Below are positions 2,570-20,970 of a stretch of 20,970 nucleotides of DNA, piece after piece. Made by a program: the position numbers and the translations under genes. Each line of letters starts with the position of its first letter. Position 1 is the stretch's first letter. A model generated the notes under the pieces. That model was not told the DNA's origin. It ran no database searches and was given only the letters and a program-made list of their open reading frames with translations. The stretch covers positions 1 to 20,970 of IMG/VR virus record IMGVR_UViG_3300006037_000047. One strand, written 5' to 3'. The DNA comes from a virus.

Positions 2570-2681
2570 GGACTTTTTAAAGGCCGAAAAAAAGAGACAA
2601 AAACAAATCCAAATGGGTGATGTTAAGAAATCTTTTTTTCAAAAGTTAAAGCATTTTTTTAACTTTGGGATTTGGCCTTGA
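2526..2681 (+). CDS. Small basic protein, TTG start
   Basis: A 51-residue, strongly basic protein (KKVLTRQQRRKIHRDFLKAEKK...) ending in an aromatic tail, FFNFGIWP. The start is inferred as TTG 2526 because AAGGGGG at 2512-2518 sits 7 nt upstream. A longer frame from GTG 2457 exists but has no site and would lie wholly inside the previous gene. It overlaps that gene by 44 nt and the next by a TTGA overlap, typical of a coupled head operon. Function unknown; the charge would suit binding to nucleic acid or to an acidic scaffold. Confidence 0.6.
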   Translation: MKKVLTRQQRRKIHRDFLKAEKKRQKQIQMGDVKKSFFQKLKHFFNFGIWP

Positions 2682-3903: not shown

Positions 3904-4319
3904 GTCATAATGCCGCAAAAGTTTTATTAGGTGCTATCCGTTCAAGCTTTAAAGTTGTTGATAACAAAGTCGGCACTGTTGCCGCTGGTTTAATTGCACG
4001 TCTAAAATCTGATGGCACGGTGACAACCGCTGCAGCTGATGGGTTACCTCTTGGTATTTCATTAGGAAAAGATTTAAGCGATGCGGGCCGCATGAATATT
4101 TGCCGCTCTGGTTTAGGCGTTCCTTTGATTTTAACTGCAGCTTTCACACCAACAGTCGGTGCACAAGTTCATATTTCAGACACAACAGGAAAAGGTATTG
4201 CATCAGGCGCGGGCGCGACTGGTATGAACGCTGTATATGCATCTGGTGTTTTGACTGGTGTTAAAGAGGATGGCACGACTGACAACGTGGCTTTGATTGA
4301 CTTTCAAGGCGGCTTATAA
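3900..4319 (+). CDS. Head decoration (capsid-stabilising) protein
   Basis: A 139-residue Gly/Ala/Val/Thr-rich beta protein: VAAGLIARLKSDGTVTTAAADG, then LPLGISLGKDLSDAGRMNICRSG, then VGAQVHISDTTGKG. This pattern is typical of gpD/DUF2190-like decoration proteins that trimerise on the mature head. It starts with ATGA overlapping the scaffold stop, preceded by AGGGGAG. The frame is clean and has no signal peptide. Confidence 0.75.
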   Translation: MSHNAAKVLLGAIRSSFKVVDNKVGTVAAGLIARLKSDGTVTTAAADGLPLGISLGKDLSDAGRMNICRSGLGVPLILTAAFTPTVGAQVHISDTTGKGIASGAGATGMNAVYASGVLTGVKEDGTTDNVALIDFQGGL

Positions 4320-4492: not shown

Positions 4493-5359
4493 ATGACAAA
4501 TAAAATCGCGTTAAGAAGTGTTGAAGAGTTTATGCAAGGTTACACACCAGCATACAACCCAATTTTGCCACTGTTTTTGAGCATTGCTCAACAGTACAGC
4601 GTTGAGGCTGGCAAGATCGATTTTAAACGTGCTGACACTGTCGGGGATATCCGTGCAAAAATGGTCGGCCCTAAAGACACTGAAATGCATCAAATTCACT
4701 CAAAAGAGGGCACAAAGACTTTTAAAAAATATTTCTTTGGTGCTCAATATATCCAAAGTCAATTACAAGACCAAAAGGGATATGAGGATGTTGTTGGTCA
4801 AGTTTTAGATGAACACAACAAACAAGCTGATGAATTATTTTTATTAGGCGAGGGAACATCTGCATCAACAATGATCAATAACGGTCTTTATTGGTCAGAC
4901 GATGCAAACTACGTTTTAAAAACGTCTTATGAAGTCGCTAAAGATGCGAACGGAAAGCATTTAGCTGACCTGTACACAAAAATCGTTTCAATCGTTCAAG
5001 ATGCAGACGAAGTTGACGGTCAAAAATTAGTTATTGTTTATGGCTCGGACATGATCACAAAATACAACGGTCTTTTGACTGACACATCAACAGCCTTGAG
5101 CAAGGTTTTATCTGATGCGTTGCCAAATGTTTCGTTTGCGAAAATGCCAGCATCAATCACACCGTCAAATGCAAACGGCTTTATCGTGATCAACTTAAAT
5201 CAAACTAAATTGCACTACACGTTGCTACCAGCTATCAAAGGTCAAGGCATCAATGAAGAGAAAATGTATGCTTGGACTAATTTCTTGATGGGTTCATCAA
5301 TGTTAGAAGTCTTAGCTTTGGGCGGTGTTATCAGACAACCGTTAACATTTGCAGCTTAA
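4493..5359 (+). CDS. Major capsid protein
   Basis: A 288-residue protein with the features of an HK97-fold coat protein: an N-terminal helical region, a beta segment KKYFFGAQYIQSQLQD near 77-92, an ADELFLLGEG motif followed by a 'nNGLYWSDD' turn near 113-136, and a C-terminal beta region LEVLALGGVIRQPLTFA. It is short for the fold and has no obvious prodomain or cleavage site. The ribosome site GGGGATC is strong, and the gene is closed by a terminator at 5421-5451, consistent with high expression of one abundant protein. Confidence 0.85.
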   Translation: MTNKIALRSVEEFMQGYTPAYNPILPLFLSIAQQYSVEAGKIDFKRADTVGDIRAKMVGPKDTEMHQIHSKEGTKTFKKYFFGAQYIQSQLQDQKGYEDVVGQVLDEHNKQADELFLLGEGTSASTMINNGLYWSDDANYVLKTSYEVAKDANGKHLADLYTKIVSIVQDADEVDGQKLVIVYGSDMITKYNGLLTDTSTALSKVLSDALPNVSFAKMPASITPSNANGFIVINLNQTKLHYTLLPAIKGQGINEEKMYAWTNFLMGSSMLEVLALGGVIRQPLTFAA

Positions 5360-5464: not shown

Positions 5465-5722
5465 ATGAGGGATTTTTTAAACGGCATTTTGACTTTTATT
5501 GTTGCAACATCTTTGACAGATGATGAGTTTGACACTGTTCAATCTACTATAACAATCTATGATCAAAGCACCTATGATGATTTGGCTCGTATTCTGCAGT
5601 CACGTGAATCAGTTTCAGTATATCAAGACAGACTCTTAAATTTTTATTTGGCAAAAGGGGTTGATGTTGCACCGAAATCAACAGCGAAATCTAATATTTT
5701 GATCGGCTCGGTTTTGTCTTGA
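5465..5722 (+). CDS. Putative head-tail connector protein
   Basis: An 85-residue protein with helical segments and a Ser/Leu C-terminus, directly after the capsid and before the neck proteins. In this position small helical proteins usually form the first ring under the portal. The start has GGGGATC two nt upstream. The stop overlaps the next start as TTGA. No specific family is recognised, so function rests on gene order. Confidence 0.6.
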   Translation: MRDFLNGILTFIVATSLTDDEFDTVQSTITIYDQSTYDDLARILQSRESVSVYQDRLLNFYLAKGVDVAPKSTAKSNILIGSVLS

Positions 5723-6201
5723 AAGTAGAGCTTTCGAAATACTTTGTTAAAAAGCTATCTGGTCAGATTGAAAAATATCAATTTGATGTCGGGGTTTTAA
5801 ATGATGGCCCTCACTATGAGGCCAAAAATGAGCTCACAACTTATGCGGGCGGCCCTGTTTTAAAAAAGTCTCGGGTTAAATCTGGACTCTCAACAGGTGA
5901 GGTTTTAGTCGAAAATCAACAGCGTCTAAACATCAATCTTTTATCAAGACCATTTCAGGAAAAAAACTCTGATATTTTGAGATTCACAAAAGCATTTTTA
6001 GAGCTTGTTGCATCAGGAAAGGGCAGCATCAAGAGAGTTGAAAATCTGTTGCAAGCCATTGTTAGAAATCCAATACTAAATGAGGAGTACGGATCAAACA
6101 AAGCGTCAACAGCTGATGCCAAAGGTTTTGACCGTCACTTATTTGCGACTGGCCAGATGTTTAAAGCTATTTTAGCGAGGGCAACACGTGTTCGAAAATG
6201 A
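5719..6201 (+). CDS. Putative neck / tail-completion protein
   Basis: A 160-residue protein starting at TTG 5719, overlapping the previous stop. The pattern VGVLNDGPHY near residues 25-34, RPFQEKNSD near 77-85 and the C-terminal RNPILNEEYGSN...KGFDRHLFATGQMFKAI is found in phage virion-morphogenesis proteins between capsid and sheath (neck or tail-completion class, loosely HK97 gp10-like). It would join the filled head to the tail. The basic C-terminus (RATRVRK) overlaps the next gene's GTG start. Confidence 0.6.
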   Translation: MKVELSKYFVKKLSGQIEKYQFDVGVLNDGPHYEAKNELTTYAGGPVLKKSRVKSGLSTGEVLVENQQRLNINLLSRPFQEKNSDILRFTKAFLELVASGKGSIKRVENLLQAIVRNPILNEEYGSNKASTADAKGFDRHLFATGQMFKAILARATRVRK

Positions 6202-6595
6202 TCTTAAATCTAAACTTTTAAAAATATTCAACTGCAAAAAAGTCAGTTTTGATCAACCTAGCAATATGCGTGAACAAGAGTGCCTATTTGTCGAAATCGA
6301 GGTCGCTAATAACACTGTCAAAGACGGTCGTGTGTTTTCAAAGGTTAGTGGCAAGGCCATCATGTTTGGCAACAATGAAAAACTACCATTTGGTTACTTT
6401 TCAAAACGCATTGCGAAATCAAACCCCGAGGACACAAAGCCATTTTTTTTCTTTGATATAGAGTCAAACACAAAGCGGTATCAAGATATCGTCGAGCGTG
6501 GTTTTTCATTCATTTATTTTTTTAATAGTCAATTCGATCCCGAAACAGGTACGATTGACAGTGTAAACTTTACAACAACAACCGAGGAGATTTAA
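6188..6595 (+). CDS. Putative tail terminator protein
   Basis: A 135-residue protein starting at GTG 6188, inside the end of the previous gene. It is alternating beta: LFVEIEVANNTVKDGRVFSKVSG near 33-55, LPFGYFSKRI near 65-75, then PFFFFDIESNTKRYQDI and FIYFFNSQFDPETG. Its size and its position immediately before the sheath match the tail-terminator (gpU-like) class that caps the tube and meets the neck. The DxETG end resembles proteins seen at this place in small myophages. No enzymatic motifs are seen. Confidence 0.6.
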   Translation: MFENDLKSKLLKIFNCKKVSFDQPSNMREQECLFVEIEVANNTVKDGRVFSKVSGKAIMFGNNEKLPFGYFSKRIAKSNPEDTKPFFFFDIESNTKRYQDIVERGFSFIYFFNSQFDPETGTIDSVNFTTTTEEI

Positions 6596-6599
6596 AACA

Positions 6600-7529
6600 A
6601 TGAATATTCTACTTGATTATTTTTTTCCAATCACAGCGATTTCACCAACCCCTCAAGCGTCAACAGCCTATTTAAAACAGGTCTGCATCATTGTCAGTCC
6701 AAAGGGCGCGGTCCCGACAGGAGTCGCAACCCTATGTACTTCTATGATTCAGGTCGCAGCTTTGACAGACAATACAGAGGCTCAACAGTTGTTTGATGCT
6801 GGAATGTCTCGAGTTTATGTCATGCCATCAGATGATCTTGATTTAGCAGATGCTTTAGCTGATTATGGCTCTGACTTCTTTACAGTTTTAATTTCAAGTG
6901 ATTTTGTTGACGCTGATGTGACTGCGATGACTTTAGGCGCTTTCAAAGGCGTTGTTGGGGTGTCATCTGACTCTGATGTGTTTTTAGCGGTCCAGTCAGT
7001 CATTGAAAATCGAGCTGCATTTCATACTACAACTGGCAACAAAGCCAAAAATATGTTCTATGCTTTCGGGAAATTGCTTTCAAATTCACTTAACTGGACC
7101 AATCAGCAATACATCACAATGCCTTTTGCTGATGATGTTGCAACGCTTGGGGATGCCAACACATTATTTGACGATAAAATTTCATTTGTTTTAAATGACA
7201 GTGAATTTGGAAAGCGTCTAGGATTGTTTGCGGCTGGATCAAAGGCAATTGTCCAGCCTTATATCACTCGAAATTTAGAAATCGATATCCAATCAAAAGC
7301 CTTGTCGTATATCTCGGGAAATCAACCGAACTACACAAAAAAACAGGCGGCTTTACTTGAGGATGAACTGCAAAAAGTGATTGAAAGTTATATCCAAAAA
7401 GAATGGATTGAGGCGGGCGTTGTTGAGGTTAAACTCGAGCAAGAAAACTTTGTTGCGTCGGGATATATCAACATCAGTGAGCCAAAAGCTTTATGGCGTA
7501 TCTTTGGTGAAATTAGACAAACTTTATAA
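6600..7529 (+). CDS. Contractile tail sheath protein (short form)
   Basis: A 309-residue protein directly before the tube gene, the normal order in contractile tails. The middle is an alpha/beta region with strand-like segments (VYVMPSD, FFTVLISSDF, FKGVVGVSSD). The C-terminal domain (RNLEIDIQSKALSYI...LEDELQKVIESYIQKEWIEAG...VEVKLEQENFVASGYINIS) matches the conserved inner sheath domain: a long helix after a beta hairpin and a final edge strand that links neighbouring subunits. Sheaths of larger myophages are commonly 350-660 residues, so this is minimal, lacking outer decoration domains. GGAG is upstream of the ATG. Confidence 0.8.
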   Translation: MNILLDYFFPITAISPTPQASTAYLKQVCIIVSPKGAVPTGVATLCTSMIQVAALTDNTEAQQLFDAGMSRVYVMPSDDLDLADALADYGSDFFTVLISSDFVDADVTAMTLGAFKGVVGVSSDSDVFLAVQSVIENRAAFHTTTGNKAKNMFYAFGKLLSNSLNWTNQQYITMPFADDVATLGDANTLFDDKISFVLNDSEFGKRLGLFAAGSKAIVQPYITRNLEIDIQSKALSYISGNQPNYTKKQAALLEDELQKVIESYIQKEWIEAGVVEVKLEQENFVASGYINISEPKALWRIFGEIRQTL

Positions 7530-7542: not shown

Positions 7543-7962
7543 ATGACTTTTAAAATTTACAACTGCGATTTTGGTATCAAAAGAAATGGTGTCAACTATG
7601 ATTTCGAACACGTTGCAGAGGTTCAAATTGAAGATCCAGAGCGAAACCGTTTAACACGTGGATCAAATGCCAGCAATAAAACTGGCTTGGTCTATAAAGA
7701 CGGCCTTAAAGATCCAAAGCGTTGGACAATCCCAATCTTAAATATGTCTGCAGCTTTAAAATCTGTTTTAGATGAGGTTTATAAAAGCCAAGAGCGCATA
7801 GAGGTGTATTGTATTGACCGAGTTGATGGCTCGAGCAAGATGGCCAAAAATGCCATTTTATCAAATAAGCCGCAACAGCTGACAATCGATGAATCAGCTG
7901 AATCAATGAACGTGAGTTTGGAGTTTGAAACTTTCGATTCAAGTGAGGTTCATAAATCGTGA
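7543..7962 (+). CDS. Tail tube protein
   Basis: A 139-residue, beta-rich protein after the sheath. The N-terminus reads FKIYNCDFGIKRNGVNYDF and the centre DPERNRLTRGSNASNKTG, then LKDPKRWTIPILNMSAALKS, the central helix of the tube fold. The C-terminus has NKPQQLTIDESAESMNVSLEFETF, a final strand pair. Such proteins polymerise as hexameric rings inside the sheath. Upstream is AAAGGGGATTAGACA. The stop overlaps the next start as GTGA. Confidence 0.8.
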   Translation: MTFKIYNCDFGIKRNGVNYDFEHVAEVQIEDPERNRLTRGSNASNKTGLVYKDGLKDPKRWTIPILNMSAALKSVLDEVYKSQERIEVYCIDRVDGSSKMAKNAILSNKPQQLTIDESAESMNVSLEFETFDSSEVHKS

Positions 7963-8333
7963 TTCAAGTTTTAGAGCTCAAAGGTTTTAAATCACTTAGA
8001 GCAATGAACGCATTTCACTCGCTGATGCTCGGCCTCAAGATGTTGCCATCATACATGGGTGAGTCTTACGAGGATTTTTTTGCACGTATTCAGCAAATGC
8101 CGCCTGATGATCAAAAAAAAATGATCAAAGAGGCGGCTTTATTTGTCGAATTGCAAAAGGAAGAGGTCGAGGCCTTGGTTTGCTTTTGTGCAGATAAAAA
8201 CAATGTGCCATATACATCTGAAAATCTGAAAAGTTTAAAGCCTGACGAAATCTTAGAAATCATTGTTGCTGTATGCTGCGAAATTTCTAAGATCAAAATT
8301 GATTTTGTTTCAGAGTCCGAAAAAAAAAACTAA
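7959..8333 (+). CDS. Tail assembly chaperone, G form (unshifted)
   Basis: A 124-residue helical, acidic protein between the tube and tape-measure genes, the place of lambda gpG and of P2/Mu equivalents. It starts at GTG 7959, overlapping the tube stop. These chaperones coat the tape measure before tube polymerisation and are not in the virion. The C-terminus (ISKIKIDFVSESEKKN) ends at a run of ten A's, with the in-frame heptamer A-AAA-AAC at 8324-8330 directly before TAA. That is the standard site for making the longer GT form by -1 frameshift. Confidence 0.8.
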   Translation: MIQVLELKGFKSLRAMNAFHSLMLGLKMLPSYMGESYEDFFARIQQMPPDDQKKMIKEAALFVELQKEEVEALVCFCADKNNVPYTSENLKSLKPDEILEIIVAVCCEISKIKIDFVSESEKKN

Positions 8334-8440: not shown

Positions 8441-9407
8441 AGTCTTAAAAATTATCCCTAAACTCGACGCTCAAGCTCTTAACAAAATGGAAAAGAGTCT
8501 TGCATCGAGATTTGCCAATGTTGCCAAAAAATTTGGATCTGGTGTTGCAAACGTCTTTAAGGGCGGGGGCATTGCTGGTGCTGCATTGGCTTTGATCGAC
8601 AAGCTTTTAAACCCATTAAAAGAGGTTCAAGATTCGATCGATCGGACTTTGAAATCAAGTGATGATGTTGTAACAAATGCCAAACAATTCGAAACATCAG
8701 CTGGTAAGCTGCAAAAACTTATTGCTATGGCACAAGGCGCGGGCCTTGGTCAGGATGATTTATTTCAACTGTTAACTAAATTTCAAACAGCTGTTGCAGA
8801 GGCCAAAGCAAATCCTAGTGCGCCATCAGCTGTTAAAAACTACGCAAACGATAAAGATACGGCACAAAGCTTTTTTGATTTCATTCAGTCACTTCAAAAA
8901 ATGGAAAAGGGCCAACAAATTTTGGTTCAACAATCTGTATTTGGAGAAAAACAAATACTTAAAATGTCTGACTTTTTAAATTCAGATTTTAAATCAATGT
9001 TTAAGCAAATCGGACTTGATAAGGTTTCATCGCAAAAGCTGACTGGCGCTCTTGAAAAAACAGGCGGCCTAAGTGATTTGTCTGATATTTTAAAAGCCAA
9101 AAGAGACACGACTGACATCATCGCAAAAGCTGGTGTTATCAACGAAAGCATGATCCGTGCACGTGACAAAGCCGAGCGCGTGGCCTTAGAGCGTGAAAAT
9201 CAAAGAATTAGATCATACGAGGATTTACAAGCCATCAGCACCACGGTTGATAAAATCATGGGATTGGTCGAGGAGGGGCTCGGACAAATTGGAAAATTTA
9301 TTTCATTTGTTACACCAGCATTGACTCGAATTGTTGAATCTATCGAAAAATTTTCAAAGGGACCAATGGCTCGGGGACTTATGAAATTATTTGGAAAGGG
9401 TGACTGA
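8430..9407 (+). CDS. Tail tape measure protein (short)
   Basis: A 325-residue, almost wholly helical protein after the chaperones. There is a Gly/Ala hydrophobic segment at about 44-58 (KGGGIAGAALALIDKLL) and a second hydrophobic patch near the C-terminus (KFISFVTPALTRIV), as in many tape measures. No peptidase or lysozyme insert is present. Tail length follows tape-measure length at about 0.15 nm per residue, so the tail should be roughly 50 nm, very short for a myovirus. Its ATG lies within the end of the chaperone T frame; its stop overlaps the next ATG as TGATG-type coupling. Confidence 0.75.
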   Translation: MFSEVLKIIPKLDAQALNKMEKSLASRFANVAKKFGSGVANVFKGGGIAGAALALIDKLLNPLKEVQDSIDRTLKSSDDVVTNAKQFETSAGKLQKLIAMAQGAGLGQDDLFQLLTKFQTAVAEAKANPSAPSAVKNYANDKDTAQSFFDFIQSLQKMEKGQQILVQQSVFGEKQILKMSDFLNSDFKSMFKQIGLDKVSSQKLTGALEKTGGLSDLSDILKAKRDTTDIIAKAGVINESMIRARDKAERVALERENQRIRSYEDLQAISTTVDKIMGLVEEGLGQIGKFISFVTPALTRIVESIEKFSKGPMARGLMKLFGKGD

Positions 9408-9955
9408 TGTTAAACGGCATTGATCCAATAATCATTTTTCAATTTAGCAAACTGGCCAGTGATGCAAATTCACTACTGACAAAAATCCCTGTTATCTCAA
9501 AAATCCCGACAGTGATCGAGCAACCCCCGATCCCTATTTATTTAAGCGAGGAGTTGACTGGTCTTTATATCGACACAGAAGACAAAAACGTCGATATTCA
9601 AACCGACACCGAAACGCTTTCATCTGGTGATGCACCAGAAACAACGCAAAAGGGTGTTGGCTCGACTGTTACTATCAACCTTGTGGCCAAAAAAGACTCT
9701 GTTGGCATGAGCCTTTTAAGTGCTATGATTGATTTGGTATTCGATAAAGTTACATCACGTGAATACGCAATCACTTATATGCATGGTGCAACAACAATTT
9801 TTAGAGCTGTTTTGCATAGCTTTGCAGTCAGTCAAAATTCGAGCAATGATTTATTGAGCGTGAAAATTGAATTGTCTCGGGGCGCGAAAACACCAGAAAA
9901 AAAAGCTGGTCCGCCCGAAACACCTAAATTAAACAATTTGCAACAGTTAGGATAA
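9407..9955 (+). CDS. Baseplate or tail-distal structural protein
   Basis: A 182-residue protein after the tape measure, where baseplate hub genes begin. The N-terminal 50 residues are hydrophobic (IDPIIIFQFSKLASDANSLL). The middle is beta-rich (GLYIDTEDKNVDIQTDTET, GSTVTINLVAKK), and the end (SNDLLSVKIELSRGAK) resembles the last strand of a tube-like fold, so a tube-initiator or hub-adaptor role is plausible. The Pro/Lys-rich tail (KTPEKKAGPPETPK) is disordered. No recognised family. Confidence 0.6.
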   Translation: MLNGIDPIIIFQFSKLASDANSLLTKIPVISKIPTVIEQPPIPIYLSEELTGLYIDTEDKNVDIQTDTETLSSGDAPETTQKGVGSTVTINLVAKKDSVGMSLLSAMIDLVFDKVTSREYAITYMHGATTIFRAVLHSFAVSQNSSNDLLSVKIELSRGAKTPEKKAGPPETPKLNNLQQLG

Positions 9956-9959
9956 AGCA

Positions 9960-10214
9960 ATGGACTATTTTTGGTATCTTGTTTGCAATCGAGCTGAATT
10001 TGAAGCTTTAAATTTATATTCAAAGACCTATGTTTTAGACCTTGAGGATATTGGCCAAAAGCCGATCTTAGTCACGAAAGGCAACATTTTGGGTATCACT
10101 TATAATGGGATTTATTTGCCTGTTAAATTAAACAGCAAAAATCCTTTCGAATTTGAGGGCCATGCCGTATATGAGGCCGAGTCTGGCAACATCTATTTAG
10201 GGATCCAGCAATGA
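9960..10214 (+). CDS. Small baseplate-region protein of unknown function
   Basis: An 84-residue protein with alternating strands (KTYVLDLEDIGQKPILVTKGNILGITYNGIYLPVKL). No cysteine pairs, signal or membrane segment. Placed between two hub-region genes and overlapping the next start as ATGA at 10211-10214, it is probably a structural or assembly part of the baseplate. I do not recognise it. Confidence 0.6.
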   Translation: MDYFWYLVCNRAEFEALNLYSKTYVLDLEDIGQKPILVTKGNILGITYNGIYLPVKLNSKNPFEFEGHAVYEAESGNIYLGIQQ

Positions 10215-10651
10215 AATTAAAGTGCTCTCATGGCTTTTATTTGTTCGAGGAAACCAGAGTCGGTCAGGTCTCGGACTTTATGAGCCAGACAGGCTTTGAA
10301 ATTGGGCCATTAGACAATCTTTTCACATTTAAGACCTTGATAGATGCACCAAAATATTCGATCAAAGGCGGGCCTTTATTGAGCTCACAATCGATTGTCA
10401 CTTGTGAGGGCAATCAGTGGGATGTCTTTAAGGAAAATGCAGTTGTTTATGATTTCACAAAGGATTTAGTTGTGCCAATTTCGAGCATAACCCAAACCAT
10501 GAGCTTAAAACTCGCTGGCAATTTTTTCATTTCTAATGGTCTAATTTTAGCGGGGTCGATCGATCAAAATGGCAACAAGATTGAGGGTTATTCAGCTTTC
10601 TATTCAAGGGATCGGGGCTCATGGTTATATTCAGAGGTGAGTTATGTCTAA
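10211..10651 (+). CDS. Baseplate-region protein of unknown function
   Basis: A 146-residue, beta-rich protein. It starts MKLKCSHGFYLFEETRVGQV and includes GPLDNLFTFKTLIDAPKYSIKGG and SYSxFYSRDRGSW-like segments near the end. The AGGGATC site 7 nt before the ATG is good, and it overlaps the preceding stop. By order (after tape measure, before gp25/J-like genes) a central hub role is likely, but no LysM, gpD or gp27 signature is visible. Confidence 0.6.
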   Translation: MKLKCSHGFYLFEETRVGQVSDFMSQTGFEIGPLDNLFTFKTLIDAPKYSIKGGPLLSSQSIVTCEGNQWDVFKENAVVYDFTKDLVVPISSITQTMSLKLAGNFFISNGLILAGSIDQNGNKIEGYSAFYSRDRGSWLYSEVSYV

Positions 10652-11030
10652 GATATTAAATGCCACGTGTGACTCGTCGGGAAAAGTAACAGCTGATGGG
10701 ATCATTGTGCCAGAGGCCGAGGTTTTAACCGAGGGAAAGCAAGATAGCGCGGGCCTTTTATTTATTGAAAATAAATCGGTTAAGTATTTGACGGTCAACA
10801 CCAGCGATTTAAAAACATTGATTGAAAAAACCAGCTCTGCATTAGATGATGTTTCTGCAGCACTAACCAAAATCGGTTTGACACTGACTTCGATTGGGGC
10901 GGGCATGACAGGGCCAACAACAGCACCGCCACCGACTTTGGCAACTGATGTTGCAACAATAAATTCAAAGGTGACGGAAATAAATGCCGTTAAAGCCGAG
11001 CTCGACACGCTGAAAGGGGCTTTGAAATGA
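10644..11030 (+). CDS. Baseplate-region protein with conserved Gly-Pro-Thr-Ala-Pro C-terminal helix
   Basis: A 128-residue protein. The N-terminal half is beta-like (VTADGIIVPEAEVLTEGKQ); the C-terminal half is helical and interrupted by GAGMTGPTTAPPPTLATDV. It then ends in a heptad helix (INSKVTEINAVKAELDTLKGALK) that would trimerise. Trimeric helical ends are usual in spikes, but no PAAR or His-x-His tip motif is seen, so I leave it as baseplate-associated. It overlaps both neighbours by 4-8 nt. Confidence 0.6.
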   Translation: MSKILNATCDSSGKVTADGIIVPEAEVLTEGKQDSAGLLFIENKSVKYLTVNTSDLKTLIEKTSSALDDVSAALTKIGLTLTSIGAGMTGPTTAPPPTLATDVATINSKVTEINAVKAELDTLKGALK

Positions 11031-11341
11031 TCGACATTGTGAGCACAACATACGGTCAAGACATTGGCACTTTCAACACCCAAACAACTAGGGCCGCAAA
11101 TCTTTTATCTGTTCAACTCGGGGCTCTTGAATATGCTCAAGATTTAGGGATCGATTTAAAATATTTTTTATCAGAAAATTTCAGATTTCAAAACGAGAGT
11201 TTTAAAGCATACTTGATCGAAAATCTTGCGTCAAAAGGTATCAACGTGACCGACGTGATCGAACAGGTTGAAACTCTTTTCAGCACTTATAAATTTAATT
11301 TAGCACCAGAAGAGACATCATCTGGTTTTGTGGCGAGGTAA
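11027..11341 (+). CDS. Baseplate wedge protein, gp25/W-like
   Basis: A 104-residue protein directly before the J-like gene, as gp25/W-type proteins are in T4, P2 and Mu. It has a pattern YGQDIGTFNTQTTRAANLLSV then LEYAQDLGIDLKYFLS and a C-terminal helix-turn-strand ending NVTDVIEQVETLF. The typical gp25 ending with an invariant Glu-Pro-Arg is not clear here, so the identity rests on size, order and the folded pattern. It overlaps the previous stop as ATGA. Confidence 0.6.
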   Translation: MIDIVSTTYGQDIGTFNTQTTRAANLLSVQLGALEYAQDLGIDLKYFLSENFRFQNESFKAYLIENLASKGINVTDVIEQVETLFSTYKFNLAPEETSSGFVAR

Positions 11342-11343
11342 CA

Positions 11344-12153
11344 ATGGGCTTTTCTTTAGAAAATGGCTACGTGCCAACAACGGTCGAATCAATACTTTCG
11401 AATCTAATCCCCGACATCAACACAAATTTCGGGACAAGCTACACCGAGGTCACTTTTGTTGGCTCAAATTTATATAAATTCTTTTATGCCCTTGCTCAAA
11501 AGATGCAGCAAAACGAGGTTAAAACATCAGAAATCTTTTCGAAATTGCAGCAATATATTGCAATCACTAACGAAAGGATTTCACGACCTGTTAACACAAA
11601 TCGGGGGATCATCGACAAATTAGGCACCGAGGGCTACGTGGCCAGCGTTAAGCCGATGATCGATGCTGATGCTGGCAAGATCAACATTTGCATTGATACG
11701 GATGAAACTGCAGACGATTACGAGGAAACAAAAATTGCTTTATGTACTTTGATTTCGCAAATCACTGTTGCTGGTGCAGTCACTCAAGGAACCGAGGCCG
11801 AAACAATTGTTTTGTCAAATGGTCAGGCCTTTGATTTTAAATTTCATTTGCCAAATCGTATCCCAATTAAATTAAAACTGACTTTGACTTTATCTGAAAA
11901 TAATCAGGTTGTTGTTGGAAATCCCGACGATGTTAAAGTTTTATTGTTGAGCAACATTGCAGCAAGGTATCGTTTGGGCCGCAATTTTGAGCCTCAAAGA
12001 TATTTCTCGGTTTTAGATGCGCCTTGGACATCACAAGTTAAACTTGAATGGTCTGATGATGGCGGTTCCACGTGGAACAGCACAATTTATGATGCCAATT
12101 ATGATGCGCTTTTCACTTATGGACTCGCTGACGTGACGATAGTCGAGGTTTAA
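11344..12153 (+). CDS. Baseplate J-like protein
   Basis: A 269-residue protein with the layout of baseplate wedge protein J. The N-terminal helical region reads TTVESILSNLIPDINTNFG, then GSNLYKFFYALAQKMQQNEV. A central strand region has GTEGYVASVKPMIDADAGKI and an insertion LSNGQAFDFKFHLP. The C-terminal domain reads VKVLLLSNIAARYRLGRNFEPQRYFSVLDAPWTSQVKLEWS. P2 J and Mu gp47 are longer (about 300-360 aa). It forms the ring that triggers sheath contraction. It starts 2 nt after the previous stop. Confidence 0.75.
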   Translation: MGFSLENGYVPTTVESILSNLIPDINTNFGTSYTEVTFVGSNLYKFFYALAQKMQQNEVKTSEIFSKLQQYIAITNERISRPVNTNRGIIDKLGTEGYVASVKPMIDADAGKINICIDTDETADDYEETKIALCTLISQITVAGAVTQGTEAETIVLSNGQAFDFKFHLPNRIPIKLKLTLTLSENNQVVVGNPDDVKVLLLSNIAARYRLGRNFEPQRYFSVLDAPWTSQVKLEWSDDGGSTWNSTIYDANYDALFTYGLADVTIVEV

Positions 12154-12154
12154 G

Positions 12155-12697
12155 ATGCCGCAATTTTTTAAGGGCGATTCGGAAGAGTTAAAATTTTACA
12201 ACTCGGGTGAGCCAACCCTATCGGCTTTGTCGATGCAAAAGGACAATTTCTGGACTGATGCTTATAATTGTTATGTTTTGGGTCAGATGATTTGGGACTC
12301 GGGCTTGTCACCTTTGGCCAATGCAATCCCCCGAGATATTTTCAGACAATCATTTGCAACAATCTTTGACTCTTTTTTATTAGCTGGATCTTTTGAAAGT
12401 TATCTAACTGTTTTTAGAAAAGTTTTTGGACCGTCGGTTGATGTAACTTTCACGGTGCCAGCCGCGGGGAAATTAAATATTGCCATTGTTGCTGACACAA
12501 TCGAAATAACTGATTTTATTGCTCGATATATCGATGGCAATATTTATGTATTTGATGAAATCATCGATGATGAGGGTGACAATATCGCTTTTCAATCTGT
12601 TCAAGGTCTTGAATCAGAATATGAATTGGAACAAATGTTGTTTGAATTGGTCCCTGTTGGGATCTACACTGACATCACTTTAACTTTCGGGGGATAA
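12155..12697 (+). CDS. Baseplate I-like protein (tail fibre attachment)
   Basis: A 180-residue protein after J and before the fibre, the gpI/Mu gp48 position. The N-terminal half is helical with many aromatic residues (DNFWTDAYNCYVLGQMIWDSGLS). The C-terminal half has strands (VTFTVPAAGKLNIAIVADTIEI) and an acidic turn VFDEIIDDEGDNIAF. It should link the baseplate wedge to the receptor-binding fibre. Sequence similarity to gpI is not obvious by eye; order is the main argument. Overlap and spacing are tight (1 nt each side). Confidence 0.6.
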   Translation: MPQFFKGDSEELKFYNSGEPTLSALSMQKDNFWTDAYNCYVLGQMIWDSGLSPLANAIPRDIFRQSFATIFDSFLLAGSFESYLTVFRKVFGPSVDVTFTVPAAGKLNIAIVADTIEITDFIARYIDGNIYVFDEIIDDEGDNIAFQSVQGLESEYELEQMLFELVPVGIYTDITLTFGG

Positions 12698-12698: not shown

Positions 12699-13634
12699 AT
12701 GGCACAAAAAAAAATAACCGATCTACAGCTAATTTCGTCGGTCACTGATGTTTTAAATTTAGTCGGGGACAATGGTACCCAAACATATAGATTGACCGCT
12801 TTACAGTTAAAAAATTATGTCTTGAGCGCGGGTGCTGTTATGGCAGCCGCTCTTGCATCTGATTCAGTTACAACAGCAAAAATTTTAGATGCAAACGTGA
12901 CTCGTGCCAAATTAGCGGCTGGTGCGATCGGGAATATGTTTATTGTTTCAAAGAGTGCTGACTATACAGCGGTCGCATCAACTGACGATATTATTTTAGT
13001 CGATGCATCTGCGGGAAATAAAACAATAACCTTGCCCGCAGTATCAGGCTTAACTGGCAAAAAATTCACAATTAAAAAAACTGATTCATCTGCCAATAAG
13101 GTTATCATTGACGGAAATGGCACTGAAACGGTCGAGGGTGCTTTAACATTTTCGCTATTCAATCAAAATGATGTTGTCGAAATCGTCTGCACTGGTACGG
13201 CTTGGGTGATTTCTAATCTTAATTTCACAAAAGAAAGTGTTGTCTGTTCAACTGGCACCGCAACATATTCACAAACTGCAAATACTTTTATAACTGCACC
13301 TCTGACAATCACATCAGACTCAACAAGATATCCGATTAGCTCGAACACAATAACAGTTAGAAAAACAGCAAAATATCGAATCATTTGCCGCAATAGTTTC
13401 ACTGGTGTCAATGGTGAGGCTGGTTATGTAACATATTCAGTTAACGGTGCCAGCGAATCATCAAACTGGATAAACTCTTATTTAATGGACTCGAACGCAT
13501 CTGGATCGACAAGCCAAATCACTGAATCAAAAGAGTTAACTTTCACAGCTGGTGATGTTTTGAGACTTAGAACCCAAATGGCCACAAATACTAGAACTGG
13601 TGTCAATGGTCGTTTAGAGCTAATGGAGATATAA
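12699..13634 (+). CDS. Tail fibre / receptor-binding protein
   Basis: A 311-residue protein. The N-terminus (AQKKITDLQLISSVTDVLNLVGD) is the short anchor type common in phage fibres. A shaft-like repeat segment follows (ASDSVTTAKILDANVTRAKLAAGAIGN), then a beta domain near 85-170 (DDIILVDASAGNKTITLPAVSGL...). Finally a jelly-roll-like head with C1q/TNF-type strand order (TAKYRIICRNSF...GDVLRLRTQMAT...GRLELMEI) would carry the receptor site. No separate chaperone gene follows. It is the only clear host-range determinant in the genome. GGGGGAT lies just before the ATG. Confidence 0.75.
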   Translation: MAQKKITDLQLISSVTDVLNLVGDNGTQTYRLTALQLKNYVLSAGAVMAAALASDSVTTAKILDANVTRAKLAAGAIGNMFIVSKSADYTAVASTDDIILVDASAGNKTITLPAVSGLTGKKFTIKKTDSSANKVIIDGNGTETVEGALTFSLFNQNDVVEIVCTGTAWVISNLNFTKESVVCSTGTATYSQTANTFITAPLTITSDSTRYPISSNTITVRKTAKYRIICRNSFTGVNGEAGYVTYSVNGASESSNWINSYLMDSNASGSTSQITESKELTFTAGDVLRLRTQMATNTRTGVNGRLELMEI

Positions 13635-13883
13635 ATGGAAAGCTATCTGACAACAGAAATATTAAAAGCACTGACAGGCGGGGATCTGTCGAAATTTTTA
13701 GGTTATGGCCTTGTATTCTTTTTTATTTGGCTCGAGGTCCGAGGGATGAAAAACCAGCTCAAAGACTTAAATAAAACTGTTGCTGAAAGCTTCAAAGAGG
13801 GCGAAAAACGCTTTGAAGCCATCGAGGACCATCAGCTTAAAATCGAAATGAGACTTTCAAAGCTTGAATCATTGACAGATTAG
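13635..13883 (+). CDS. Small membrane protein with coiled coil, holin candidate
   Basis: An 82-residue protein beginning directly after the fibre stop. One membrane segment is visible at about 21-34 (FLGYGLVFFFIWLE), followed by a basic residue and a coiled coil to the C-terminus (LKDLNKTVAESFKEGEKRFEAIEDHQLKIEMRLSKLESL). One membrane helix plus cytoplasmic coil is a form seen in small phage holins and XhlA-like proteins. Position before the lysis enzymes supports this. Function is inferred. Confidence 0.65.
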   Translation: MESYLTTEILKALTGGDLSKFLGYGLVFFFIWLEVRGMKNQLKDLNKTVAESFKEGEKRFEAIEDHQLKIEMRLSKLESLTD

Positions 13884-13900
13884 AAATTTGCTAAAATAAT
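13872..13900 (+). promoter_or_regulatory. Strong sigma70-type promoter before the lysis genes
   Basis: A perfect -35 TTGACA (13872-13877), a 17-nt spacer and -10 AATAAT (13895-13900, 5 of 6 matches). The -35 lies within the last codons of the preceding gene. Transcription would start near 13907 and give a short leader before ATG 13924. It is the best match to a host promoter in the window. Confidence 0.75.
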
Positions 13901-13906
13901 TTAGCA
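13889..13906. repeat. Perfect palindrome over the -10 of the lysis promoter
   Basis: TGCTAAA (13889-13895) and TTTAGCA (13900-13906) are perfect inverted arms with a 4-nt centre ATAA. The palindrome covers the -10 and the expected start point, and no T-run follows, so an operator is more likely than a terminator. Confidence 0.6.
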
Positions 13907-13923
13907 CTAACAAAGGGGATCTT

Positions 13924-14130
13924 ATGGAAATCACAAAAGGTGTTACAGTTGACTATAAAGCTGGCAAAATCGTAGTAGAGGCCGAAGTCGCAAATTTAAT
14001 TTTGCCAAAATTGGAAGAGTTAAAGGCTAAAATTGAATCAGGCGAAATCGATCCAATCAAAGGCACGTCTTTGGATGCTGTTGCGATGATCGGTGCAATC
14101 GATTTTATCAAAGCTGAAATCACAAAATAA
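13924..14130 (+). CDS. Small protein of unknown function in the lysis region
   Basis: A 68-residue acidic protein with an N-terminal beta hairpin pattern (ITKGVTVDYKAGKIVVEAEV) and a helical middle (LILPKLEELKAKIESG). The ribosome site GGGGATC lies 2 nt before the ATG spacing used by other operon-head genes, and it is first behind the promoter at 13872. Its TAA shares an A with the next ATG. No family is recognised. Confidence 0.7.
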   Translation: MEITKGVTVDYKAGKIVVEAEVANLILPKLEELKAKIESGEIDPIKGTSLDAVAMIGAIDFIKAEITK

Positions 14131-14477
14131 TGACACGTGACGAGTATATCGCAGCAATTAAATCAGCTGCGATCACCGTTATTAAGGCCGATATTGTCTC
14201 TTGGGCGGTGTCGGTTTTTCCTTTTTTTGGTGCTGGTCCTTTGGGATTGGTGCTAAAAATATTTTCTGGATCCATTGCAAAATTCATTGTTGAAAAGGGC
14301 GAGGCCGAGGCTTTTTTTAAATACATTGATTTCAGGACAACAGCTCAAGGCCGTGAATTTGAAAAGGCCGCACTTCGAAATATTGAGGCCCAAAAAAGCG
14401 GGGACAAAGATGCAAAAATCAAAGCTGAAACATATCTCATTGATTCACTTCGCGCTGTTGTTAGGATTGCTAACTAG
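14130..14477 (+). CDS. Hydrophobic lysis-region protein, second holin candidate
   Basis: A 115-residue protein with a long hydrophobic region at about 12-54 (AAITVIKADIVSWAVSVFPFFGAGPLGLVLKIF...). A Pro/Gly break in the middle could divide it into two membrane segments. A charged helical C-terminus follows (EGEAEAFFKYIDF...ALRNIEAQKSGDKDAKIKA). It precedes a lipoprotein and two hydrolases, so a holin or inner-membrane spanin partner is plausible. The last 68 nt overlap the lipoprotein gene in another frame. Confidence 0.6.
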   Translation: MTRDEYIAAIKSAAITVIKADIVSWAVSVFPFFGAGPLGLVLKIFSGSIAKFIVEKGEAEAFFKYIDFRTTAQGREFEKAALRNIEAQKSGDKDAKIKAETYLIDSLRAVVRIAN

Positions 14478-14775
14478 CTGTCAAACAAAAGTGCCAAAGG
14501 TGCCAATTTGTGCCGAAATCAGGCCTGATAAAGCATATTGCATCAACACTATCACATCACAAGAGTTTGTTTGGGATGATCAAAACCTTTTCGAAGATAA
14601 AACTTATTGGGATGCAAGGCCGACTCTTTTGTTATTGCCAGCATCATCATGGGTTGAGATAAAAAAATTCATCATTGAAGTCTGCAAAAAAACCAAAAAA
14701 TGCGATTCACAAGTCGCGTCTTGGGAAAGAACTGTTGACGTGATCGACGAACAAATAGATTTAAAAACTAAATAA
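14410..14775 (+). CDS. Outer-membrane lipoprotein, possible o-spanin-type lysis protein
   Basis: A 121-residue protein. ATG 14410 is chosen because it gives a proper lipoprotein signal: basic N-terminus (MQKSKLKH), hydrophobic core (SLIHFALLLGLL) and lipobox LTSC with the modified Cys at 24. GCGGGG stands just upstream. A longer frame from 14275 has no such logic. The mature part has four further Cys and a segment LLLLPASSWVEIKKFIIEVCKKTKKC. It starts inside the preceding gene in another frame, like the Rz/Rz1 arrangement, but it lacks the Pro-rich body of Rz1; a different envelope role, such as exclusion, is possible. Confidence 0.65.
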   Translation: MQKSKLKHISLIHFALLLGLLTSCQTKVPKVPICAEIRPDKAYCINTITSQEFVWDDQNLFEDKTYWDARPTLLLLPASSWVEIKKFIIEVCKKTKKCDSQVASWERTVDVIDEQIDLKTK

Positions 14776-14788
14776 ATTGGAGTTATAA

Positions 14789-15361
14789 ATGGAAAAAAAA
14801 TATAGTCCTTTGGAGTTGATGGCTTTAAGTGCACCGTGGGTTTTTGCAAACCTTGATCTTTTGGGCCTTGATGAAAATGATCCGATTTTAAATGCCAGAT
14901 ATGTCCCCGAATGGAAATTAGAGGGATTGCCAGAATATAAAACTTTGGCTGGCAATAAACACGCTTGGTGCTCACTCAAGGTCAATGCTGATTTAAGAAA
15001 AGTTCAAATCAAAGGTACCAACAGTGCTGCAGCGTCGAGTTGGTCAAAATACGGTCGAAAATCACCATTTTGGTTTGGCTCTATTTTGGATATTGCTCAC
15101 GAGTCAGGCGGTCGTCACGTTTGCATTTTTCTATATTGGATCGATGAGGAAAATGGCATTTGTGCAACAGCTGATGGCAACAAAGGAAATAAATTTTGCA
15201 TTGCTAAAACAAATATTTCTGGCAAAAAAGGTGCTGATAGACTGGTATCTGGTCCCCGATGGCCAATGCATGAAAAAGACGGTTATTTATTTTCAATGGA
15301 TGAGGTTTTAAAAGCCTATCCAGTTTTAAAAGTTGGATCGACCGCACAAGGGACAAGATGA
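14789..15361 (+). CDS. CHAP/NlpC-like peptidoglycan hydrolase (TIGR02594-type)
   Basis: A 190-residue cysteine peptidase-like enzyme, probably cutting cell-wall cross-links at lysis. Catalytic Cys is likely at 61 in HAWCSLKVN, followed by GTNSAAASSWSKYG as in the TIGR02594 family. The His is likely at 110 in GGRHVCIFL, and the third polar residue is Asn131 or Asn134 in DGNKGNKFCI. No signal peptide or wall-binding repeat is seen, so it would need the holin. GGAG is upstream. The stop overlaps the next gene by ATGA. Confidence 0.8.
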   Translation: MEKKYSPLELMALSAPWVFANLDLLGLDENDPILNARYVPEWKLEGLPEYKTLAGNKHAWCSLKVNADLRKVQIKGTNSAAASSWSKYGRKSPFWFGSILDIAHESGGRHVCIFLYWIDEENGICATADGNKGNKFCIAKTNISGKKGADRLVSGPRWPMHEKDGYLFSMDEVLKAYPVLKVGSTAQGTR

Positions 15362-16002
15362 AAAAATATTCAGAAATCACAACTGGTCAGGATGCAGATG
15401 AGGGCTCAATCTCATGGTACCGGAAAATGTTTTTAGCTTGTGAGCCATTGCCAGAAAAACAAAAGCAATTAGATCAAACGATTGAACTCATCACCAGCGG
15501 CCTTGCAAAATATTTATTAGTGGCCAAAAGATTGAAAGCAAAAAACCCTTTGGATTTCGCTTGGATTTTGGGTGTTGTTCACTTCAAAGAGGGCTCATGC
15601 AATTTCAAAGGTGTCTTGCATAATGGCGAAAAGATTGTTGGCACCGATAAAAAAACCACGATTGTCCCGATCGGTCGGGGGCCATTTCAATTTTGGGATG
15701 ATGCTGCAGTTGACGCTATCAAAATGAACCCGAAAAGATGGCAAAAATTGATTGATGGCTCAAATGATATTTCGGAAATACTTTATGCCTTAGAGCGATA
15801 TAACGGTACTGGTTACATCGTCGGGGCGGGGAAAGCTGAAACAAGTCCTTATTTGTGGTCGTGTTCGAACGTTAATGATGGGTTTGGCAAATATGTTGCT
15901 GATGGCAAATTCGATCCAATGGCCAAAACAGGCTCAACGTGCGGGGCGGCCTTGATCTTAAAAAAGCTTTGGATCGATAAAAAGCTAACCCTCACAGTCT
16001 AA
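15358..16002 (+). CDS. Muramidase-like endolysin
   Basis: A 214-residue enzyme of lysozyme/transglycosylase-like pattern. It has FAWILGVVHFKEGSCNF, with Glu78 as the likely catalytic acid, then GVLHNGEKI at 85-93 and GRGPFQFWDDAAVDAI near 107-121. YALERYNGTGY and YLWSCSN...FGKYVADGKFDP close the fold. This series is known from phage endolysins that cut the glycan strand. It is translationally coupled to the CHAP-like gene, so the phage makes two wall enzymes of different specificity. No terminator is evident after the stop. Confidence 0.75.
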   Translation: MKKYSEITTGQDADEGSISWYRKMFLACEPLPEKQKQLDQTIELITSGLAKYLLVAKRLKAKNPLDFAWILGVVHFKEGSCNFKGVLHNGEKIVGTDKKTTIVPIGRGPFQFWDDAAVDAIKMNPKRWQKLIDGSNDISEILYALERYNGTGYIVGAGKAETSPYLWSCSNVNDGFGKYVADGKFDPMAKTGSTCGAALILKKLWIDKKLTLTV

Positions 16003-16224: not shown

Positions 16225-16241
16225 GTTAAGCAGAGGTGCTT

Positions 16242-16451
16242 ATGGATTTTATTGCTATCATGCTTATGGCTTGTGCAAACCCATCAATGAACGGTTTTAA
16301 AACTAAAAAACAATGCGAAAACTATCATTTGGATTGCGTTAAATGGATGCAAATACAACCCGAGGTCCAAGACAAAGGTCTAGGTCGTGATGAATTGCTT
16401 TTATTTTTAACAACCCAAAAGAAAAAAGACCTTAAAAAAATTTGTGGTTAA
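16242..16451 (+). CDS. Small Cys-containing protein of unknown function
   Basis: A 69-residue protein with a short hydrophobic N-terminus, MDFIAIMLMAC, then CENYHLDCVKWMQ and a charged helical tail (LLFLTTQKKKDLKKICG). LMAC would fit a lipobox, but there are no basic residues before it, so export is doubtful. I take ATG 16242, with GAGG at 16233-16236, rather than GTG 16236. The ribosome site lies in the loop of a small hairpin (16228-16241). Its TAA overlaps the stop of the convergent RusA-like gene. Confidence 0.6.
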   Translation: MDFIAIMLMACANPSMNGFKTKKQCENYHLDCVKWMQIQPEVQDKGLGRDELLLFLTTQKKKDLKKICG

Positions 16452-16810
16452 ATCTCTTCAATGGTGACTGTTAACAAAGGCCCTTGAGATTTGGGCCTAA
16501 ACTCTTGAGTGACGTTCCAAACCCCGAGCACGTTCCAAGAGTCTGACTCTAAAACCCCCGCACTCACCAGACCGTCAACAACAGGCTTTAAAGATCCAAC
16601 GAGGCCATCATAGTCAAGCGTACGATAAAAGTGCCTGACGATAGTTATACGCGCTTTTTTGAGGGGTTTTTCTGGCATCTGATTTCGACAAGTGCCGAAT
16701 ACAATCATATCCCAATTTTTATTTGTTTGATTATTTTTAAAGCGGTTTGTTCTAAGTGCCTTATTTAAAGACTTTGGCAATGAATGAAATTTGAGCTCAA
16801 TTTTGTGCAT
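16448..16810 (-). CDS. rusA: RusA-like Holliday junction resolvase
   Basis: A 120-residue protein on the minus strand. The pattern LPKSLNKALRTNRFKNNQTNK at the N-terminus, then RTLDYDGLVGSLKPVVDGLV and GVLESDSW, is the RusA family: the metal-binding acidic residues are Asp66, Asp68, Asp79 and probably Asp90. The dimer cuts four-way junctions and would resolve branched concatemers before packaging. With the ERF protein opposite, it forms a recombination pair. There is no clear ribosome site, and a promoter candidate (TTGAAA at 16846-16841, AATATT at 16822-16817) would start at or next to the ATG. Confidence 0.8.
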   Translation of the reverse strand: MHKIELKFHSLPKSLNKALRTNRFKNNQTNKNWDMIVFGTCRNQMPEKPLKKARITIVRHFYRTLDYDGLVGSLKPVVDGLVSAGVLESDSWNVLGVWNVTQEFRPKSQGPLLTVTIEEI

Positions 16811-16812
16811 AC

Positions 16813-16845: not shown

Positions 16846-16870
16846 AGGTTATATGTTAGCCGATCGGTTG

Positions 16871-17323: not shown

Positions 17324-17337
17324 AGACAATACAACAA

Positions 17338-17348: not shown

Positions 17349-18335
17349 ATGTCTGAAAAAAATATCTATCAACGCATGATAGAGGTCCAAAAGATAGTTC
17401 AATCAGTCGAAAAAAATTCAGTAGTCAAAATGTTCGAAAACGACAAGGGATATAAAGCGGTAACCCATGATGATGTTGCTAGGGCACTTCATTTGCCATT
17501 AGCAGAGTGCGGGGTTGTTATGGTCCCCGACGTTGTCAGTTATGCTTTCACAAGCTTTGAAAAGCCAAACTATCAAGGAAAATTGGTCACGTGGCACCGT
17601 GCAGACATTGAAATTTCTGTTAAATGGATCAATGCCGATAAGCCAGAGGATTTTTTTGCATCGAAAAGTGCTGCATTTGCTATAGATACATCAGACAAAT
17701 CATTTGCAAAAGCATATTCACTGGCTTTAAAGATTGCTCTTTTAAAAGTCCATTTGCTTGAATCACGTGATGATGAGGAGTCAAGACCATTCGAAAACGA
17801 AAACGGCATCGATTCAAAAGGAAATTCGACAACTAAAAACCAGAATAAACCAACACAAAAAAAGCAAACTCAACCCGAGCCACAACAAAAAACTGTCTTG
17901 GATCCAAAAGATTTCATCATGCCATTTGGAAAAACAACTAAGGGAAAAAAATTAGGATCACTTTCACTTGAGACTCTAAACGATGTTTTGCAATACACCG
18001 ATGGGGAGCTCAAAAAAGAAAATTCAACTGCACAACTTAACAATTATTTAGTTTTAAAAGCTAATTTGTTAAAAGTTATTTCAACTTTCAATCTAGAAAA
18101 AAAAGATGAACAAAAGCCAGATGTCGGGGACTCAATAATTGAAATCGAATTTGATACCGTCGAAAATGAATTGGTCAAAGGTAAGACTTTAAAAATGATC
18201 CCCGAAAAAACTCTTTTGGCCATGATCCAAGAGCTCGATAAAAAGATGCAGTCAGTCCCCCCGCCTAAAAACTTAACAGCTTTATTTTCGATAAATTCGA
18301 AAATCAAAGAATTTCTGAAATCTTGCGGGGTGTGA
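17349..18335 (+). CDS. erf: ERF-family single-strand annealing protein with ExoX-C-like tail
   Basis: A 328-residue protein. Residues 1-150 match the ERF family: IYQRMIEVQKIVQSVEK, YKAVTHDDVARALHLPLAECGVVMVPDV (35-62), VKWINADKPEDFF (91-103), and SAAFAIDTSDKSFAKAYSLALKIALLKVHLLES (107-139) ending in an acidic DDEESRPFE. Such proteins anneal complementary strands during phage recombination and end-joining. Residues 151-185 are a Gln/Lys/Pro linker. Residues 189-220 (FIMPFGKTTKGKKLGSLSLETLNDVLQYTDG) match the small domain found at the end of exodeoxyribonuclease X, thought to bind DNA. A helical tail follows. It heads the early operon. Confidence 0.85.
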   Translation: MSEKNIYQRMIEVQKIVQSVEKNSVVKMFENDKGYKAVTHDDVARALHLPLAECGVVMVPDVVSYAFTSFEKPNYQGKLVTWHRADIEISVKWINADKPEDFFASKSAAFAIDTSDKSFAKAYSLALKIALLKVHLLESRDDEESRPFENENGIDSKGNSTTKNQNKPTQKKQTQPEPQQKTVLDPKDFIMPFGKTTKGKKLGSLSLETLNDVLQYTDGELKKENSTAQLNNYLVLKANLLKVISTFNLEKKDEQKPDVGDSIIEIEFDTVENELVKGKTLKMIPEKTLLAMIQELDKKMQSVPPPKNLTALFSINSKIKEFLKSCGV

Positions 18336-20159: not shown

Positions 20160-20441
20160 TTGGAACATCAATTAAAAATTTGGCCTCAATACTATAGCCG
20201 AGTCAAAGACGGATCCAAGACGTTCGAAATACGCGAAAATGATCGAGGATTTCAACAAGGTGACTCGGTTGTTTTGCGTGAATATGATCCAGATCCGATC
20301 AATGCGACATCATCATCGCCAAAAGGCTTTACTGGATCACCTGACTTGAAATTTAAAATTGGTTATGTTCACGTTTTAGACTCAAGCCGCGTTGTTTTCA
20401 GTCTTTTATCAATTGGAAAATCTAAATCTAACAAGTCTTGA
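20160..20441 (+). CDS. DUF3850/ASCH-like (PUA-fold) protein
   Basis: A 93-residue protein starting at TTG 20160, with AGGGG 7-8 nt upstream. The pattern H-x-L-K-I-W-P-x-Y-Y-x-x-V-x-D-G-x-K-T-F-E-I-R, then ENDRGFQQGDSVVLREYDP and a final KIGYVHVLDSSRVVFSLLSI, is that of DUF3850, an ASCH-related small domain common in phages and thought to bind RNA or modified nucleotides. It stands alone between the early terminator and terminase, so it may be expressed with either group. Confidence 0.75.
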   Translation: MEHQLKIWPQYYSRVKDGSKTFEIRENDRGFQQGDSVVLREYDPDPINATSSSPKGFTGSPDLKFKIGYVHVLDSSRVVFSLLSIGKSKSNKS

Positions 20442-20464: not shown

Positions 20465-20970
20465 ATGGGATCACGTGGACCACAGCCATCAGATAAAATA
20501 AATTGGGATGAGTTTGACAAACTCGTTTCATATCAATGCACCCAAAAGGAAATTGCAGCTTTTTTCAATGTCAGCGTTGACACGCTTGAACGCGCTTGTT
20601 TAAGAGATCGAAACGAAAAACTTGCGGATATTTGGGACAAAAGAACTTTCCTTGGAAAAGTTAGACTCCGAAAAGCCCAATTCGAAATCGCTGAATCAAA
20701 AGGCTCTGGTGCTGCAACAATGGCCATATTTTTAGGCAAGGTTATTTTAAAACAAAATGATAAGCCTGAATTAGATCCACCGCACCCGCCAAACGGTACG
20801 AGTATCGAACCAAAAAAAGTCTCATTCGAAAAGTTTTGTGAAAAGGCGGGTTATCCAGAGCCATTCGAAAAGCAATGCGAAATGCGGGCCTTTGGATTGG
20901 ATGAAACGGATCCAAGACTTTTGTTAGGTTCAAGGGGTTATGGCAAGACAGACTATGTCACTATTTTGGG
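20465..20970 (+). CDS. terL: TerS-like domain fused to terminase large subunit (N-terminal part; continues at base 1)
   Basis: ATG 20465 follows an in-frame TAA and opens a frame that crosses the circular join and ends at 1114 (509 residues in all). Residues 1-100 resemble stand-alone small-terminase proteins: MGSRGPQPSDKINWDEFDKL, then a helix-turn-helix CTQKEIAAFFNVSVDTLERAC, then FLGKVRLRKAQFEIAESKG and GAATMAIFLGKVIL. Residues 118-139 (VSFEKFCEKAGYPEPFEKQC) lead into the ATPase. Normally the small subunit recognises the packaging site and is a separate ring-forming protein. The ribosome site (GGTGATAGG) is weak. Confidence 0.85.
   Translation, partial: MGSRGPQPSDKINWDEFDKLVSYQCTQKEIAAFFNVSVDTLERACLRDRNEKLADIWDKRTFLGKVRLRKAQFEIAESKGSGAATMAIFLGKVILKQNDKPELDPPHPPNGTSIEPKKVSFEKFCEKAGYPEPFEKQCEMRAFGLDETDPRLLLGSRGYGKTDYVTIL
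20881..20970. repeat. Terminal direct repeat (circular overlap), right copy
   Basis: Identical to bases 1-90. Bases 20882 onward are in the same terminase frame as bases 2 onward, so removal of one copy restores an uninterrupted gene. Confidence 0.95.

Follow-up and report, generated by a model that had tools for sequence, protein, structure and literature searches.

A 20,970-nucleotide stretch of viral DNA (positions 1 to 20,970 of IMG/VR virus record IMGVR_UViG_3300006037_000047, hereafter ‘the window’) begins and ends with the same 90 bases, which raises the questions of whether the record holds one whole genome and what kind of phage that genome would encode. Our analysis indicates that the window is very probably an uncultured tailed phage, captured as its full 20,880-bp unit, of the Bdellovibrio dwarf myovirus lineage that contains phi1402 and MAC3UK, two phages that infect this predatory bacterium.

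Bases 1–90 of the window are identical to bases 20881–20970, and 90 is the sole length at which its ends overlap exactly. Over the whole window and both strands, the 90-mer occurs twice on the plus strand and not at all on the minus strand. Within the 20,880-base unit, no other site repeats any of its 15-mers or 20-mers (two of its 12-mers do recur), and the next-longest exact direct repeat in the window, at 54 bases, is found at positions 19065 and 19185 in a pentapeptide-repeat gene. A chance match of 90 bases at the exact ends is therefore excluded. Joining the ends at the overlap yields a stop-free terminase frame of 509 codons (20465–20880, then 1–1114), the product of which aligns on both sides of the join to the terminases of phi1402, MAC3UK and six uncultured relatives, with identities to the window of 32–47% over the 40 columns before the join and 62–74% over the 40 columns after it. 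The gene that spans the join is unbroken in these relatives, and the order of genes through it (the ASCH gene, then the terminase) is that of phi1402. For these two reasons the conclusion that the record represents one full, closed genome unit of 20,880 bp is well supported, in agreement with the sequence-only reading, which had taken the exact overlap and the intact reading through it as closure. A false closure, in which a repeat had joined two ends of a genome with genes missing, is conceivable among contigs of this kind, given that the end overlap of one of them (G009) sits in a tandem repeat. We consider it highly unlikely for the window, where the 90-mer has no 15-mer in common with the rest of the unit, the gene order through the join agrees with that of relatives and the virion core is complete.

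From the overlap it follows that the assembly closed on itself, but not that the packaged DNA bears a 90-bp terminal repeat. Linear virion DNA bearing a direct terminal repeat, as in T7-like phages, would give an exact end repeat as well, although a repeat at this position would fall within the terminase gene, which the packaged molecule would then carry in two pieces. We compared contig ends in a set of 34, made up of the window, 20 first-round relatives, nine further contigs and four annotated phage records, and found exact overlaps in 12, of 121 bases in four contigs, 127 in six, 123 in one and 90 in the window. Three further contigs (G002, G009 and G010) had near-exact overlaps; G009, whose ends fall in the tandem repeat mentioned above, was left out of the closed set. 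Measured upstream from the capsid gene, the joins of the resulting 14 closed genomes fall anywhere from 0.9 to 62.1% of the genome away. Overlaps of a few set lengths (121, 127) at scattered joins, with no single conserved site, point to assembler word lengths on circular graphs and not to conserved physical ends, and they leave the T7-like arrangement with very little probability. The 90 bases are thus most likely an assembly overlap. The length of 90, which matches no other overlap in the 34-contig set, would be the word length of the window's own assembler, which may have walked a circular path and repeated one word at the two ends. The packaged DNA itself would probably be linear and circularly permuted.

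We then asked where the window belongs. Megablast of the window against 50,697 phage records returned no match; tblastn against the same number of records gave phi1402 and MAC3UK as the best matches for the terminase, sheath, capsid, tube, J and gp25 proteins (identities in the table below). Over 517 alignment columns, the phi1402 TerL and the window terminase are 61.5% identical. In an eight-gene tree of 23 genomes the window is sister to phi1402 plus MAC3UK with support of 99/98, on a long branch to that pair, and a 26-row tree gives the same position with support of 98/96. The eight-gene tree leaves out Vibrio phage 1.166.O, G017 and G025, which have long branches or incomplete rows; both trees used the joined 509-residue terminase, and the comparison of gene families used its 370-residue part. 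Phi1402 (JF344709, 23,931 bp) shares 26 of the 40 window genes in the same circular order, at 54.7% amino-acid identity. It differs from the window in being 3 kb larger, in carrying an extra domain in its sheath and in having no RusA homologue found by gene-family comparison. MAC3UK (OR167113, 23,804 bp) shares 26 of 40 genes at 54.6% identity, differs from the window as phi1402 does, its sheath likewise with the extra domain, and has its annotated sheath, tape measure, neck and baseplate wedge at places that match window genes. The earlier reading had named phi1402 as the nearest known kind and suggested a proteome comparison with dwarf myoviruses. That comparison (26 of 40 genes in common with phi1402, 55% identity, collinear) turned the suggestion into direct kinship, with MAC3UK equally close; two uncultured relatives, G002 and G004, slightly exceed phi1402 in mean amino-acid identity to the window (58% versus 55%).

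Two annotated records are more distant, and both have a one-domain sheath like that of the window: Dulem virus 29 (PP511380, 23,551 bp; 21 of 21 core families, terminase 39% identical to that of the window) and Vibrio phage 1.166.O (MG592533, 21,800 bp, partial; 14 of 21 core families, sheath 31% identical). The relationship of Dulem virus 29 to phi1402 was noted in a 2024 paper on lemur viromes (PMC11281440). NCBI lists phi1402 among unclassified Caudoviricetes. An ICTV-style genus is delimited at a whole-genome nucleotide similarity of about 70%; the corresponding value for the window and phi1402 is about 21% by a rough estimate, so that by this measure the two would not share a genus. The informal lineage of phi1402-like dwarf myoviruses accommodates the window on both counts, monophyly on core genes (99/98 and 98/96) and a 21-family virion core in a single order (21 of 21, collinear with phi1402). 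The window is a new member of a known, unclassified kind of phage.

Features of the window, with the evidence for each assignment. Positions refer to the 20,970-nucleotide window; identities are tblastn values to phi1402 and MAC3UK.
Feature	Position	Strand	Basis	Identity
Terminase, 5′ part (small-subunit-like N-terminus fused to large subunit)	20465..20970, continues at base 1	+	509-codon frame through join
Terminase, 3′ part (large subunit)	2..1114	+	PHROG 38 terminase large subunit, E 2.6e-34	63–64%
Portal protein	1345..2391	+	weak Pfam Phage_portal_3, E 0.0042
Conserved head-region protein	2672..3163	+	core family
Probable scaffold	3178..3903	+	place only; core family between portal and capsid
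Probable capsid decoration protein	3900..4319	+	place only; core family
Major capsid protein, HK97 fold	4493..5359	+	model pLDDT 72.3	66%
Connector/neck genes, three	5465..6595 (5465-5722, 5719-6201, 6188-6595)	+	all core; 5719-6201 matches PHROG 222 neck protein, E 1.2e-5
Tail sheath, 309 aa, without extra domain	6600..7529	+	fold match; orthologues in sheath families; alignment	59–60%
Tail tube	7543..7962	+	place after sheath and conservation; no family match	74–75%
Probable tape-measure chaperone	7959..8333	+	place; core family
Tape-measure protein, 325 aa	8430..9407	+	family and place of MAC3UK putative tape measure
Baseplate block, seven genes	9407..12697	+	all core
gp25-like	11027-11341	+	matches MAC3UK putative baseplate wedge and Dulem baseplate protein	53–57%
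J-like	11344-12153	+	name by order and length	60–61%
I-like	12155-12697	+	name by order and length
Tail fibre	12699..13634	+	PHROG 892 tail fiber, E 0.0027
Probable lysis block	13635..16002	+	includes 15358-16002
Holin-like	13635-13883	+
Spanin-like	14275-14775	+	PHROG 456 Rz-like spanin, E 0.0049
TIGR02594 protein	14789-15361	+	E 2.6e-8, below family cut-off
RusA-like Holliday junction resolvase	16448..16810	-	PHROG 34, E 2.9e-11
Erf-like single-strand annealing protein	17349..18335	+	Pfam ERF, E 4.8e-9, above cut-off; phi1402 gp01 homologue
ASCH / DUF3850 protein	20160..20441	+	DUF3850, E 3.7e-19; phi1402 3880-4224, 60%
Second copy of bases 1–90, closing genome at 20,880 bp	20881..20970	.	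exact, unique

Few of the structural proteins found a match in PHROGs (searched with 30 window proteins) or Pfam (searched with 20). In the terminase (509 residues), the large subunit is preceded by additional N-terminal sequence that resembles a fused small subunit, and the terminases of phi1402 and MAC3UK have the same layout, the extra part included. The portal belongs to a family that includes the proteins annotated as portals in Dulem virus 29 and Vibrio phage 1.166.O. The profile of the decoration family may be widened by a domain that is also present in other proteins. The capsid model matches 237 PDB chains at E≤0.001, the best 50 of which are HK97-fold capsids and encapsulins. A published model of T=4 heads gives a mean genome of 17.98 kbp and a range of 13.2–24.5 kbp (PMC7762592), so that a head of T=4 size would fit the window genome; the head of phi1402 is described as elongated (PMC3391216).

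The sheath candidate of the window itself matches no sheath family by sequence. Its orthologues in G010 and G017 find a tail sheath family among the PHROGs (E 0.0041 and 0.00013, respectively), and that in G019 matches Phage_sheath_domII (E 7e-4, below the Pfam cut-off); all of these matches fall inside an extra domain that the window lacks, so the evidence for its sheath comes from orthology and fold. Profiles of the sheath, J and tube proteins found no relatives in the PDB by sequence (a single match at E 0.097 was taken as chance), and we therefore turned to fold comparison. A Foldseek search with the sheath model (pLDDT 60.8, a modest confidence) matched 27 PDB chains at E≤0.001, every one of which belongs, judging by its title, to a contractile phage tail or injection system; with TM-scores of 0.3–0.4, the match reflects local agreement.

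One cut-off frame aside, the stop-to-stop sheath frames of relatives form a short class (312–320) and a long class (401–450), and the difference corresponds to one domain of about 100–120 residues, which alignment shows to be absent from the window and, in a 13-row alignment, reduced to 5 residues in G001. The domain is present in the sheaths of 16 of 23 genomes and requires at least six changes on the 23-genome tree, which indicates that it comes and goes often. In a survey of 112 sheath proteins, the source describes a shortest modelled protein of 321 residues and a proposal that extra sheath domains cement the tail (PMC9230969); at 309 residues, the window sheath is shorter than that reported minimum.

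This extra domain, of ∼110 residues, recurs more widely in relatives: besides the sheath, it occurs in J and in a second decoration protein, and in one case in I, with up to three copies per genome (for example L028:11801-12973 in the sheath, L028:6788-7975 in J and L028:15384-16196 in the decoration protein). Among records long enough to judge, it is absent from the window, G001, G023, G026, G027, Vibrio phage 1.166.O and Dulem virus 29. The pattern resembles that of a module of the virion surface that passes from one structural gene to another. Copies of the domain are on average 43% identical when they sit in one genome (27 pairs), 39% when the same protein is compared between genomes (296 pairs) and 36% when different proteins are compared between genomes (538 pairs), values that do not support gene conversion between copies within one genome.

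Iterated profiles recovered all 21 families of the virion core, from terminase to fibre, in the window. The complete set was found in 15 of 18 records; no match to the fibre turned up in G023 or G027, and the Vibrio phage missed seven families. The five smallest closed genomes, including the window, have all 21 on one strand and in one order. The names J and I for two baseplate genes are ones that we presume, from order and length, to correspond to those of P2. The earlier prediction of a contractile-tailed phage with a complete head, sheath, tube, tape-measure and baseplate set agrees with the sheath fold, with the orthologues in sheath families and with the 21 core families, the tube being assigned by place. 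A contractile-tailed phage is thus mostly supported as a prediction from genes, by homology and fold comparison and not by microscopy. The 14-kb block from terminase to fibre would specify a small head of the HK97 fold and a short contractile tail whose sheath has a single domain. At 0.15 nm per residue, the 325-residue tape measure would correspond to a tail of about 49 nm.

The remaining 6.8 kb would serve lysis and recombination and hold small genes. As in phi1402, the ASCH / DUF3850 gene is directly upstream of the terminase. A pentapeptide-repeat protein (18863–19465; Pfam E 7.9e-28) contains exact 54-base repeats, the assembled number of which is uncertain; its only homologue among the compared genomes is in G009, where the repeat is at the contig ends. 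The minus-strand RusA gene is separated from the plus-strand Erf gene by ∼540 bases (16811–17348) that contain no convincing gene, and GC skew drops to zero near them; this stretch is possibly a control or replication-start region. Promoter- and terminator-like patterns at 15900–17400 were no commoner than in shuffled sequence, and the window contains no Rfam match and no tRNA.

Scans of window proteins (some small frames excepted) against PHROGs, Pfam and TIGR revealed neither an integrase nor a DNA polymerase, from which we infer that the phage probably relies on host replication machinery. The same missing polymerase might suggest a helper-dependent satellite or a defective phage; the window, however, encodes a terminase, a portal, a capsid and a full tail of its own, and phi1402, whose core is the same, has been described as independent (PMC3391216), which makes a dependent element very improbable. 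For this apparently independent phage, the sister position to phi1402 and MAC3UK points to Bdellovibrio or a close relative as the probable host, and the accessory genes common to the three (Erf, the TIGR02594 protein, the holin-like gene, ASCH and one small gene) agree with such an assignment.

The genome had also been placed among the smallest of myoviruses. Phi1402, with 24 kb and a contractile tail, was called in 2012 the smallest independent myovirus then known (PMC3391216), and the window is below that size; it is not, however, the extreme of its own lineage, since four closed relatives are smaller (G028, 17,952 bp; G001, 18,196 bp; G008, 18,951 bp; G026, 19,037 bp), and all four keep 21 of 21 core families. 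G028 (SKOF01000426.1; L048/L125) is filed in a Thioalkalivibrio MAG, and L049/L126 in a Pseudomonadota bin; SKOF01000426.1 closes on itself at 17,952 bp, so the MAG bin need not be its host. A literature search, which was selective and had most subscription journals outside its scope, found no smaller myovirus. With four members at 17,952–19,037 bp and a window sheath below the surveyed 321 residues, we see an even chance that no known genomes encoding a complete contractile-tailed virion are smaller than those of this lineage.

What had been an oddity of two isolates, phi1402 and MAC3UK, becomes a small visible part of a wide lineage, the closed genomes of which span 18 to 34 kb. Because a whole sheath domain is present in some members and absent from others under one gene order, its role can be put to the test, and the series of genome sizes is a natural one for asking what a contractile-tailed phage can dispense with.
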